Origin: SAR202 cluster bacterium
Lineage (GTDB): Bacteria > Chloroflexota > Dehalococcoidia > Lucifugimonadales > VGZR01
NCBI GenBank assembly: GCA_016872515.1
Contig: VGZR01000006.1
Coordinates: 1-64,000 of the forward strand
Length of the DNA: 64,000 bases
Direction: 5' to 3'
Shown in pieces: positions 494 to 4,569 of the stretch (position 1 is its first letter; the number at the start of each line of letters is the position of its first letter). The notes under the pieces were generated by a model. The model had not been told where the DNA came from. It searched no databases and was given only the letters and a program-made list of their open reading frames with translations. A program made the position numbers and the translations under genes.

Positions 494-608
494 GGATTCC
501 TGGCGAAAGCCACATATTTGTCACAACCTCTTTATCCTATCACCACCGCCTTCCTACACATTCCCCTTGAAAATCTCCCCACATAGCCGCAGAATCAAAG
601 TCAAGCTT

Positions 609-1469
609 ATGCAATCTAACCATCTTGGGAAGTTCTTCGTCTGGCTGCTGCCAGTCGCCGTGGTTCTCACGGCACTGGCGCTAGCAGCCTGTTCCAAGAG
701 CGCCGAGCCGACCCCCGCGCCAACCGCTGCCCGGCAGGCAACCCACGTCCTGCAGGCCACCCAGGCGCCGGAGGAGGCCGAGACTCCCCTGCCCTTGCCC
801 ACCGAGCCTACGGCACAGGAGCAAGCGGCCACGTCCACCCCCGAACCCGAGGCCGAGGTAGAGGTCAACCCAACGTTCACCCCGACCCCCGCGGCCATCC
901 CTTCGCCAGCCGCCACCAACACGCCGACGCCCGTACCCCCGACGCCGACGGCCAAGCCAGCAGCGGCGCCCACACCGAGGCCCTCGGCCACACCGACGCC
1001 TACGCCGCTCGGCGAGTTTACGCTCGTGGACGGGTTCGGCTTCACCCTCCGCATAGACGGCCAGGCGGACGTCCAGTCGGCGGGCTGGTCCGAGTCCGAG
1101 CCTTCCGAGTCGCAGGGCCAGGTCCAGTTCCAGTACAGCGGCGTCACCGCCATCCTCATCTGGTTGCCTGCCGTGGACTACACCCCCCAGACCCTCTTGG
1201 AGGAGGCCTACGCGACCCTCCAGGCCACGCGCCCTAGCATCACCTTCACCGCCGTCAGCGAGGCCGACATCCAGGTCTCCGGCCAAACGGGCCGGTTCGG
1301 CGGCTTCTCCGCCTCGTCCGGAGACACCGTCGTAGGCGGCGGGCTGATCGGCACGTGGCTCTGCCCCAGCGCCGATACGGCTTATGTGCTCACAGTGACC
1401 GGCGTTGACTCGGTCACCGTCCAGATCAGGTTCCAACGCCTGCTGGCGAACTTCGAGTGCGCTCCTTAG
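609..1469 (+). CDS. Lipoprotein with Thr/Pro-rich linker
   Basis: The 286-residue product starts MQSNHLGKFF, followed by a hydrophobic signal segment ending in a lipobox (L-A-A-C-S), so it is predicted to be lipid-anchored outside the membrane. Residues about 30-135 form a low-complexity linker of Thr-Pro repeats typical of surface proteins crossing a cell wall. The last 140 residues form a compact domain starting GEFTLVDGFGF, which I cannot assign. The frame is open further upstream, but the ATG at 609 directly before the signal peptide is the only sensible start. The next gene, a secreted repeat protein, begins 25 bases downstream and may be co-transcribed. Confidence 0.75.
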   Translation: MQSNHLGKFFVWLLPVAVVLTALALAACSKSAEPTPAPTAARQATHVLQATQAPEEAETPLPLPTEPTAQEQAATSTPEPEAEVEVNPTFTPTPAAIPSPAATNTPTPVPPTPTAKPAAAPTPRPSATPTPTPLGEFTLVDGFGFTLRIDGQADVQSAGWSESEPSESQGQVQFQYSGVTAILIWLPAVDYTPQTLLEEAYATLQATRPSITFTAVSEADIQVSGQTGRFGGFSASSGDTVVGGGLIGTWLCPSADTAYVLTVTGVDSVTVQIRFQRLLANFECAP

Positions 1470-1494
1470 GCCCCCGTAAACGAGGAGTTAAGCC

Positions 1495-3582
1495 ATGAAA
1501 CGTCTGATGATGCTCACGACCATCGCGGTGGTGACGTTCGCCCTCAGCATCGGCATCGCATCCGCGCAGACACCTTCGCCCGACCCCACCGGCGGCCAGC
1601 CCGGCAGGCCTGGCCCTGGCGGCTGCACCCCAGAGACCTGTCCCACAGGCCCTGGTGGCCCTGGCGGCTGCACTCCAGAGACCTGCCCCACAGGCCCCGA
1701 CGGTCGGTTCCCCGGTGACTGCCCGGTGGGCGACTGTCCCCAGAGGCCTGACGGGGAGTTCGGTGACCTCCCACGCAGCGACGAGGCACGTGAGGCCTTC
1801 GAGCGGGCCAAAGAGCTTGGCCGCGACCAGCTGCGCAGACTCGACCCCGACTCCGCCTTCGACATCATCCGCGATCTAGACGACAAGGCCATCCAAGATC
1901 TCGGCAACGACTTCGTCCGCGGCATCCTCGAGCGCGCCGGCAAGGACGACTTGGCCGGGCTCGGCCGCGACAGGGCGCGCGACTTCGTCGAAAACCTCAA
2001 CCCCGACGACCTCGACCAGCTTGGCCGCGACCGCCTCAAGTCCTTCCTCGATAACCTGGAGGCTGAAGACGTCGCTGGATTCGGCAGGGAGAAGGCGCGT
2101 GAGTTCGTTGAGCACCTGGACACCAACGACCTCAGGGAGTTCGACCCCGAAAAGGCCCGCGAGTTCCTCGGGCAGCTCGACTCCTCCGACCTGGAGCAGT
2201 TCGACAGGGAGAAGCTCCGCGCCTTCGTGGACCGCTTGGAGTCAAAAGACCTGTCCCAGTTCGAAGGCGACAAGGCCAGGGAGTTCATAAGGGGCCTTGA
2301 CCCCAAAGACCTGAAGGAGATGGGGCGCGACAAGCTCAGGGCCTTCGTGGACGGCATCGGCGCCGAAGACATCGGCGGCCTCGACAAGGAGAAGGTGAAA
2401 GCCTTCATCGAGAACCTCGACGCCGCCGACTTCCGCGGCTTCGGGCGCGACAGGGCCAGGGAGTTCATCGAAACCCTCGACCCCAAAGACCTCCCCGGCT
2501 TCGACCCGGAGAAGGCCAGGGCGTTCGTCGACACGCTGGACGCGGAAGACCTCAGCAACTTCGGCCGCGAGAAGGCCCGCGCGTTCGTGGACGGCCTGGT
2601 GCCCGAAGACATTATCGCCGCCGGCCGTGAAAAGGCCAAGGCATTCGTCGAGGAGATGGCTGCAAATGACCTCTCGGCCATCGGGCGCGAAAAAGTACGC
2701 GCCTTCGTGGATGGCCTCGACCCCGAGGACATGCGAGAGTTCGGCCGCGACAAGGTCAGGGGGTTCATCGAGACCTTGAACCCCGATGACATCGCGGAGG
2801 TGGGCCGCGACAAGATCAAGGCGTTCGTAGACGGGGCCGACTTCCGCGACATGCGTGGGTTCGGCAGGGACAAGGTCAAGGCCTTCGTCGAGAACCTGGA
2901 GGCCGAGGACATGCCAGAGTTCGGCCGCGACAAAATCAAGGGCTTCATCGAGTCGTTGGAGGCCGACGACCTCACCGGTGCGGGCCGCGATAGGATCAAA
3001 GCCTTCGTCGAGAACATCGAGGCTGCTGACTTGGGGGAGTTCGACCGTGAAAAGGTCAAGAGATTCGTCTTTACGGTAGAGCAGGCCGACTTCCTCGACT
3101 TCGGCCCCGACAAGGTCAAGGAGCTGGCCGAGGGTTTCCTGTCCCGCGAGATCACGGGCCTGGAGCGCGAGCGCATCGAAGGCATGATGGACGGGCTGGA
3201 CGACGCACACCTCGAGGAGTTCGACCCGGAGCGCCTCGAGGGCATGATGTCCCGGGTTGCCTTCGCCAAGATCAGGGAGATGACCGGCGAGCGCCGCGCC
3301 GTCATCCTGCGCACGCTCGATGCCGACTTCTTCGGCGGCGATGCCCCCGATTTCGAGATGCTGGCCAGGGAGCGAGGAGAGGCGGTTATCAGCTTCGCAC
3401 GTGGCATAGGCGAGGAGGTCCGCGAGGCGCGGCTGGCCGAGGCTGAAGGCCGCTCCAGGTTCCTGGAGATGATTGACCTCTTCGCCGCCCCGGATGACGA
3501 GGCCTCCTCGGGCGAAGCGCTCTTCGAAGAGACGCCTACCAAAGAGTCGCCTGTCGAGGAAACCGAGTCACCAACGCCATAA
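1495..3582 (+). CDS. Secreted protein with 25 tandem 20-residue repeats
   Basis: The 695-residue product has a Sec signal peptide (MKRLMMLTTIAVV, probable cleavage after ASAQ). A Gly/Pro-rich stretch follows with two copies of the Cys-containing motif CTPETCPTGP. From residue about 116 to 615 the protein is built of 25 end-to-end units of exactly 20 residues, of the form F-G-R-D-K-h-K-A-F-h-E-x-L-x-x-E-D-h-x-x (h hydrophobic). The pattern fits one amphipathic helix plus a short loop per unit, which would stack as a solenoid. The C-terminus is acidic with a Thr/Pro/Glu tail. The L-x-x-E-D-L pattern loosely recalls the superhelical MgtE N-domain, but I cannot claim homology. The start has a good upstream GAGGAG-like site. 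Confidence 0.85.
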   Translation: MKRLMMLTTIAVVTFALSIGIASAQTPSPDPTGGQPGRPGPGGCTPETCPTGPGGPGGCTPETCPTGPDGRFPGDCPVGDCPQRPDGEFGDLPRSDEAREAFERAKELGRDQLRRLDPDSAFDIIRDLDDKAIQDLGNDFVRGILERAGKDDLAGLGRDRARDFVENLNPDDLDQLGRDRLKSFLDNLEAEDVAGFGREKAREFVEHLDTNDLREFDPEKAREFLGQLDSSDLEQFDREKLRAFVDRLESKDLSQFEGDKAREFIRGLDPKDLKEMGRDKLRAFVDGIGAEDIGGLDKEKVKAFIENLDAADFRGFGRDRAREFIETLDPKDLPGFDPEKARAFVDTLDAEDLSNFGREKARAFVDGLVPEDIIAAGREKAKAFVEEMAANDLSAIGREKVRAFVDGLDPEDMREFGRDKVRGFIETLNPDDIAEVGRDKIKAFVDGADFRDMRGFGRDKVKAFVENLEAEDMPEFGRDKIKGFIESLEADDLTGAGRDRIKAFVENIEAADLGEFDREKVKRFVFTVEQADFLDFGPDKVKELAEGFLSREITGLERERIEGMMDGLDDAHLEEFDPERLEGMMSRVAFAKIREMTGERRAVILRTLDADFFGGDAPDFEMLARERGEAVISFARGIGEEVREARLAEAEGRSRFLEMIDLFAAPDDEASSGEALFEETPTKESPVEETESPTP
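1840..3339 (+). repeat. 25 x 60-nt in-frame tandem repeat inside the secreted gene
   Basis: Units begin at 1840 and recur every 60 nt without a single indel, ending at 3339. The nucleotide sequence has diverged between units while the protein pattern is retained, so selection acts on the protein. The most regular units lie between about 1960 and 3100. The first two and last three are degenerate. Confidence 0.9.
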
Positions 3583-3594
3583 GCCTGAAGCGAC

Positions 3595-3628
3595 GTAGGG
3601 ACGTCCTGAGGTATCCGAGCGCCCCTAC
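3595..3628. repeat. Degenerate copy of the GTAGGG...CCCCTAC intergenic palindrome
   Basis: It begins GTAGGGACG and ends CGCCCCTAC in the short gap between two converging genes. The two ends are nearly complementary, with one mismatch in nine. The same ends bound the perfect palindromes at 13641-13668 and 25775-25802. It could act as a bidirectional terminator. Confidence 0.5.
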
Positions 3629-3651
3629 GGTTCCCTGAAACTCTCTTTCGC

Positions 3652-4569
3652 CTAGCGGGACGGGCTCCGGGCCAGCAGCGCCTCCACCTCGGCCCGCATC
3701 GGCATGGCGCCCTGCGCACCCGGCTTCGTGACCGCCAGGGCACCCGCCGCGCACCCCCAGCGCACCGCCTCGCTCACCGGCCTGCCCTCAGCCAGCGCCA
3801 CCGTCAGCGCGCCGCCAAAGGCGTCCCCCGCGCCGATGGTGTCCACCACATCCACCTTGAACCCCTGGACATACCCCTGCTCCCGCTTGGACGCGTAGCA
3901 TGCCCCCTGCTCCGCAAGCTTCACCACCACCATGGACACCCCGGCGGCCACCAGCGCCTCCGCCGCCTTGCGCGCCGTCTCCGGCCCGGTGACCTCGATG
4001 CCGGTGAGGAACTGCGCCTCGTTCTGGTTCGGCGTCAGCACGTCCACCGCGCGGTACGCCGTCTTCACCGGCTCCATCGGCGGCGCAGGGTCCCACACCA
4101 CGAGCACGCCGTTGGCCTTGGCATGGCGCGCCGCCTCCAGTGTGACCGAGAAGGGCAGTTCGAGTTGGATCATCAGCGCCCTAGCGCCGCGCATCGCTGC
4201 CTTGGCTGCCTGGAGCTGCGTAGCATCACAGTGGAGGTTCGCCCCGCGCACTTGGACGATATAGTTCTGCCGCTTACCGTCCAGCAGGATGATGGCAATG
4301 CCCGAGGGGTTGTCGGGGTCTTCAGCGATGCCCGATACGTCTATGCCGTCGCGCCGTAGGCCCTCCAGCAACGCAGGGCCGAACGTGTCGCGGCCCACCC
4401 GGCCCACCATCCGCACCGGCCCGCCCATGCGCGACGCCGCCACCGCCTGGTTCGCGCCCTTGCCGCCGGGGGCGGTGTAAAATCGTTCGCCCGTCACCGT
4501 CTCCCCAGGCTGTGGCACACGCTGGGTGAGTCCGATGAAGTTCATGTTAATCCCACCCAGGACGACCAC
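3652..4569 (-). CDS. rbsK: Ribokinase (PfkB family)
   Basis: This product should phosphorylate D-ribose to ribose-5-phosphate with ATP in the cytosol. The 305-residue product has the usual length and both PfkB signatures: GGKGANQAVAASRMGG near residue 35 and DTIGAGDAFGG near residue 245, the latter holding the catalytic Asp and anion hole. N-I-N-M-N-F near the start matches the ribokinase sugar-binding start. A GTG at 4569 is used here. A CTG nine codons upstream would also be in frame. It lies 36 bases after the mscS-like gene on the same strand. No ribose transporter is adjacent, though rpiB occurs at 28 kb. A related PfkB sugar kinase cannot be excluded. Confidence 0.85.
   Translation of the reverse strand: MVVLGGINMNFIGLTQRVPQPGETVTGERFYTAPGGKGANQAVAASRMGGPVRMVGRVGRDTFGPALLEGLRRDGIDVSGIAEDPDNPSGIAIILLDGKRQNYIVQVRGANLHCDATQLQAAKAAMRGARALMIQLELPFSVTLEAARHAKANGVLVVWDPAPPMEPVKTAYRAVDVLTPNQNEAQFLTGIEVTGPETARKAAEALVAAGVSMVVVKLAEQGACYASKREQGYVQGFKVDVVDTIGAGDAFGGALTVALAEGRPVSEAVRWGCAAGALAVTKPGAQGAMPMRAEVEALLARSPSR

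Follow-up and report, generated by a model that had tools for sequence, protein, structure and literature searches.

A two-gene module of a SAR202-type Chloroflexota bacterium encoding a lipoprotein and a secreted protein of 20-residue repeats with a predicted alpha-solenoid fold

The window analysed here comprises 64,000 nucleotides (positions 1 to 64,000 of contig VGZR01000006.1, assembly GCA_016872515.1) from a SAR202 cluster bacterium of the phylum Chloroflexota. It contains two consecutive forward-strand genes, encoding a lipoprotein and a secreted repeat protein, whose features are collected in Table 1. A preliminary description of the downstream gene had claimed a signal peptide and CTPETCPTGP repeats, and both are present, the former read from the sequence (MKRLMM...ASA before Q) and the latter found in two copies by TRF (1611-1697). 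That description missed the upstream lipoprotein gene, which is well supported as part of one module with the repeat gene. Two promoter-like sites were detected in the region (shuffle mean 0.2), whereas a search for terminator-like sites gave none, either between the genes or downstream of them.

Table 1. Features of the lipoprotein and repeat genes, in window coordinates.
Feature	Position	Strand	Details
Sigma-70-like promoter match, weak	567..595	+	9/12 consensus matches; just upstream of the lipoprotein gene
Lipoprotein gene	609..1469	+	Lipobox LAAC (Cys 690-692), Pro/Thr-rich linker, C-terminal domain
Lipoprotein C-terminal domain	1008..1466	+	Alignment A7: 15 sequences, with 30-46% identity to the window
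Secreted repeat gene (predicted alpha-solenoid)	1495..3582	+	695 aa; start codon 25 nt past the lipoprotein stop
Sec-type signal peptide, aa 1-24	1495..1566	+	Sequence reading: MKRLMMLTTIAVVTFALSIGIASA before Q
Pro/Gly low-complexity spacer with six Cys, aa 25-95 (71 residues)	1567..1779	+	
15-residue GGCTPETCPTGP-type repeat, two copies	1611..1697	+	TRF: period 45, 1.9 copies, 95% matches
Degenerate first unit, aa 96-115	1780..1839	+	Helical in the model (its residues 7-18 and 21-25)
25 units of 20 residues, aa 116-615	1840..3339	+	Predicted helix A ~3-12, short helix B ~15-20
Last unit, C-terminal cap (L/V)xxLxA(D/N)FF, aa 596-615	3280..3339	+	Gap-free alignment with relatives
Acidic tail, aa 616-695 (80 residues)	3340..3579	+	Low model confidence

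The array is made of contiguous units without a single indel, in agreement with the 25 perfectly spaced repeats initially counted at 1840-3339 (residues 116-615); the count was right, but a degenerate 26th unit ahead of them (residues 96-115) had been overlooked. The identity of the protein to itself at a lag of 20 residues is 0.383, against a mean of 0.085 and a maximum of 0.127 over 2000 shuffles. Between neighbouring units, codon positions 1, 2 and 3 are identical at 0.59, 0.65 and 0.51, compared with 0.33, 0.28 and 0.44 expected from base composition, which makes third positions nearly random. Among 1942 pairs of homologous positions that share an amino acid, the fraction with the same codon is 0.653, versus 0.640 expected from codon usage (0.718 versus 0.642 among neighbouring units alone, n=181 pairs). 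Since codon agreement lies about at the codon-usage expectation, the units were duplicated long ago, and selection has preserved their residue pattern. The view of an old array under protein-level selection is thus a fair one, with synonymous sites randomised and second codon positions the most conserved. The same comparison of codons among units gives no trace of recent homogenisation in the window array, in which 20 of the 25 units have Asp at position 17. The array of one relative (L037; CAJWSY010000012.1, 3-2885) holds at least 46 units, including an eight-unit block duplicated almost identically, a sign of recent segmental duplication, in contrast to the window array.

The fold was predicted with AlphaFold2 for residues 90-660 from an alignment of eight sequences. 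The model has a mean pLDDT of 83.7 and a pTM of 0.69, with pLDDT of at least 90 at 306 of the 571 residues; the core lies mostly above 90, and the final 50 modelled residues are placed without confidence. Nearly every unit is modelled as a helix of about 10 residues (positions ~3-12) followed by a second of 4-7 residues (~15-20), so that the single helix plus loop proposed in the preliminary description gives way to two helices. The 20-residue unit is therefore predicted to be a tiny helical hairpin, and the tandem units, each with at least two stacked helices, form a confidently modelled alpha-solenoid, as far as a prediction alone can place the protein in that class. A disordered chain, raised earlier as the outcome that would speak against a solenoid, is not what the model gives. 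Fold searches against the PDB and viral proteins with Foldseek and VIA-align returned generic solenoids only, with no standout, and the match lists are headed by ARM, importin, HEAT, ankyrin and designed repeats. TM scores do not exceed 0.28 among the best 50 matches of each Foldseek list, and the best VIA-align match has a Z of 7.8 and an rmsd of 7.7 over 333 residues, values of Z below 13 being uninformative for repeats according to the tool. The earlier suggestion of an unfamiliar extracellular solenoid stands on the signal peptide, the modelled fold, the lack of a credible match in Pfam, NCBIfam or the PDB, and the generic nature of the HEAT/ARM-like fold matches.

Profile searches of Pfam and NCBIfam, proposed in the preliminary description as a check for known families, yielded no credible match, and a PDB sequence search gave none for the window protein or for one relative. 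Weak Pfam/NCBIfam matches (E 1e-5 to 1e-3) were rejected as periodicity artefacts since decoys score higher. A reversed-array decoy matched an unrelated Pfam family at up to 44.4 bits (cut-off 29, E=1.5e-11) and a column-permuted array reached 36.2 bits (cut-off 24.5), in neither case with any single stretch passing. For Phage_int_SAM_1 (PF02899), the whole protein stands at 23.1 bits versus a cut-off of 22.3; no stretch passes, and decoys clear the cut-offs of other families with margins of as much as 15 bits. According to this decoy control, E-values among periodic repeat proteins are inflated, and homology in this family therefore rests on register, the C-terminal block and synteny.

Units of the relatives, for example LGGDKLADMTMNMGADNFMA, hold the 20-residue register, with hydrophobic residues at positions 1, 9, 13 and 18 in at least 92% of units and at position 6 in 60-93% (four arrays counted). 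In most members, the C-terminal 100-odd residues align gap-free to the LDA(D/N)FF cap (alignments A1 and A4), with about 20% identity of relatives to the window in this block; in alignment A3, built from shifted array pieces, MAFFT inserts a three-unit gap into the C-terminal region of most rows. The relatives range over 31-65% GC, and spacers of differing composition occupy the equivalent place in their repeat proteins. One locus (L051; G063:C4, minus strand, 1-1053) has 21-residue units and a GMPPPS-type spacer behind a lipoprotein gene. Three genomes (G023, G072 and G084) encode a very acidic version of the repeat protein; at loci L013, L005 and L018 (G084, G023), repeats of (V/F)EEPVYEEP or GDM make up the spacer, the array has an extreme content of Asp/Glu, and such arrays might bind cations. 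A short (x)LF motif (IDLF, IELF, KELF, AGLF, KGLF or SLF) recurs close to the C-terminal end, some tens of residues past the cap, in the window tail, at the 3' end of L018, and in L009, L010, L007, L024 and L004.

The distribution of the family is narrow. Within the order, profile A4 matches 14 of 98 genomes, one being the window's own and 13 belonging to the 97 others, and phmmer with the window protein matches 15 of 98, including one in G054 (E=8e-4) that was dropped as spurious, covering the Pro-rich start and having a stop inside. Across the class, profile A1 finds 4 of 393 genomes at E<=1e-6, namely the window's own, G017, G175 and G214, the last two being further repeat-bearing genomes beyond the order, from other families. 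The lipoprotein profile A7 matches 3 of 400 genomes across the phylum, all in the window's order. A short-pattern search of all bacteria and archaea returned seven loci in six genomes, all SAR202, Dehalococcoidia or Chloroflexi MAGs. Phage and plasmid records contain no match to the module, and none of 230 pattern stretches in IMG/VR is a relative. Either module gene occurs in 20 of the 98 genomes, and in a comparison uncorrected for phylogeny or completeness and based on the rounded sizes of the source table, carriers are smaller (median 1.5 versus 2.2 Mb, Mann-Whitney p=7e-5) and account for 19 of 61 genomes of up to 2.3 Mb versus 1 of 37 larger ones. The module is thus concentrated in small SAR202-type genomes, with the window's own (2.28 Mb, 65% GC) among the larger carriers.

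The gene pair recurs in related bacteria. A lipoprotein homologue lies directly upstream in all eight loci that show the start of a repeat gene together with repeats (the window, G046, G084, G044, G080, G063, G175 and G214). Conversely, 15 of 18 full-length lipoprotein genes (16 from one profile search, together with G175 and G214) immediately precede a gene that opens with a signal peptide and low-complexity sequence. Such a downstream gene is absent behind a lipoprotein paralogue on G037:C33; on G037:C11 the following gene opens with a signal peptide and a short Pro-rich stretch but runs into a stop codon 54 nt short of the end of the contig, and on G070:C6 the contig ends too soon after the lipoprotein gene to tell. 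Among the 98 genomes, 8 hold both genes, 6 the repeat gene only, 6 the lipoprotein gene only and 78 neither (Fisher p=4e-5, uncorrected for phylogeny); lipoprotein matches of A5 with E above 1e-15, and one of 7e-16, cover lipobox and Pro/Thr linker only and were left out of the counts. Both the protein architecture and the two-gene module are well supported by these data.

The lipoprotein assignment follows from a signal peptide ending in the lipobox Cys, which is invariant in all six aligned relatives, and the C-terminal domain of the family carries two further invariant Cys. No Pfam family scores above cut-off for the upstream lipoprotein, and its profiles find nothing credible in the PDB. 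One of 15 family members has a weak match to PsbP_2 (E=0.018), a sequence-level hint of a PsbP-like fold; an AlphaFold2 model from two sequences (pLDDT 36.8) is uninformative on fold.

Complete arrays are rarely seen because contigs end inside the repeat gene. According to the frame coordinates, 18 of the 19 contigs of other genomes that bear parts of a repeat gene break off within its frame, with G046:C324 as the single exception. Likewise, a contig end lies within 1.8 kb downstream of 16 of the 17 lipoprotein genes outside the window, where the number of contigs and the size of the genomes predict 1.35. Arrays of the three relatives measured hold units identical at the amino-acid level, and simple spacers together with near-identical units probably defeat assembly; the window array may be complete owing to its drifted units. 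The module may thus have been overlooked owing to truncated genes in genome assemblies.

With the repeats, the signal peptide, the lipobox and the recurrence of the pair all directly observed, we favour, at a probability of roughly one half, the reading that the repeat protein is a surface rod or adhesin of SAR202-type Chloroflexota, tethered by its lipoprotein partner on monoderm cells that lack peptidoglycan. The first gene would supply a membrane anchor with a Pro/Thr stalk and a small disulphide-type domain. The second would supply an exported rod, beginning with a flexible, disordered low-complexity spacer, whose stiff body of stacked two-helix units, a predicted solenoid, would be closed by the conserved C-terminal cap. 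Held at the cell surface by the lipoprotein, the rod would serve as a long arm for adhesion or spacing, its length set by the number of units. In cultured SAR202, as PMC10444878 describes them, cells are monoderm, without peptidoglycan synthesis, and have an S-layer-like outer layer. The repeat protein itself lacks an anchor: neither an LPXTG motif nor a hydrophobic anchor was seen on reading the tail (residues 616-695). The lipoprotein is the natural candidate for a tether, because an anchorless exported protein needs a partner in such a cell. From these features we infer binding of the rod by the lipoprotein, its surface location and an adhesive or spacer role, and likewise the "surface fibre" of the preliminary description; the protein may also be released from the cell. 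A more specific version, in which a lineage-specific rod with some of the shortest natural two-helix units is held by a dedicated lipoprotein family on cells without peptidoglycan, varies in length through recombination and is hidden by short-read assembly breaks, is put forward tentatively, as a possibility against the odds.

Four other explanations were weighed. The first is a secreted capture protein, whose solenoid groove would bind extended peptides or organic matter and pass them to the lipoprotein for nutrient uptake. ARM or TPR grooves may be cited as analogues, the fold matches include ARM and importin-type peptide binders, the Asp at unit position 17 recurs like a ladder (20 of 25 units), and SAR202 bacteria are discussed as users of dissolved organic matter. 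These matches are generic, however (Foldseek TM below 0.3 among the matches listed, VIA Z no higher than 7.8), units vary freely at surface positions, and an unsystematic look at the neighbours showed no transporter adjoining the module, which together make capture unlikely. A subunit of an S-layer-like surface lattice, instead of a single arm, would accord with a long, repetitive, secreted protein and with the isolates described in PMC10444878 as having a layer outside the membrane and no peptidoglycan genes. The module is nevertheless unlikely to be a general S-layer protein, because it is absent from most genomes searched (either gene in just 20/98), and array length and spacer composition differ more strongly than a lattice subunit could well tolerate; we regard this explanation as quite doubtful. 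Still less probable is a fast-varying surface decoy against phages or grazers, its length and units reshuffled by recombination: relatives do show identical units and block duplications (the eight units of L037) and contig breaks within the array, as strain variation could cause, but the window array is free of recent homogenisation and no phage or plasmid record matches.

An antisense frame of 751 aa (window 1488-3743, minus strand) spans the entire repeat gene, and relatives' arrays are likewise faced by antisense frames, shorter ones. Open antisense frames are a usual by-product of such codon use, which is probably what this one is. That it is the true gene, or the array an accident of codon bias, is scarcely credible despite the length of the open frame and is already refuted, short of proteomics, by the relatives, since the sense protein is conserved across 31-65% GC with its C-terminal block aligned, the signal peptide and upstream partner are conserved, and third codon positions are free with second positions the most conserved.

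The tethered rod, if correct, would give a first handle on how such cells display proteins on the outside. In addition, a two-helix unit of 20 residues, below the common length of solenoid repeats, could serve protein design. Assembly bias matters as well: the gene is cut in nearly every relative's metagenome assembly, and annotation surveys would consequently hardly meet whole copies. The alpha-solenoid class itself is known. A literature search of open-licence PMC papers found no description of such a protein among the papers listed; the searches gave no account of the 20-residue unit, of its export alongside low-complexity spacers, of a lipoprotein family dedicated to it or of confinement to a single lineage. 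The newest element is the two-gene module with an unreported lipoprotein family directly upstream.

Among known systems, TPR, PPR, ANK, HEAT and ARM units span about 33-47 residues, a length not matched by the exact 20-residue period of the window array, and the unit is indeed shorter than common solenoid repeats, as had been noted at the outset. HEAT and armadillo proteins, which provide the best Foldseek and VIA-align matches, share stacked antiparallel helices in an extended superhelix; they differ in unit length (about 37-47 versus 20 residues), no sequence relation was found, the match level is generic, and the repeat protein is secreted. The intracellular MgtE_N domain is built of short acidic amphipathic helices forming a superhelix, and the likeness to the repeat protein lies in such helices and in a weak, sub-threshold score (PF03448, 22.9 bits versus a cut-off of 25.9, no stretch passing alone). 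The window protein, in contrast, is secreted and has no CBS or MgtE transmembrane domain in Pfam or NCBIfam searches, and genuine MgtE_N proteins are encoded elsewhere in the window's genome. HeliScrew4 (PDB 9zem) is the sole PDB chain under E=0.01 with the family profile (E=1.1e-4), a match obtained from the relatives' profile, not the window protein, and subject to the inflated scores of periodic queries. Its helical units, of the LxPEQ(I/F)AAL type, are very short too, the inspected stretch reading as units of about 8 residues versus 20 in the window array; a literature search did not find a paper on it, and with the same caution about scores it comes closest to a precedent for helical units this compact. 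Short helical solenoid units are also found in LRV (24 residues) and mTERF proteins. Neither gives a profile match to the repeat protein, and with mTERF units of about 30 residues (PMC4005652), the 20-residue unit of the SAR202 protein is shorter still.
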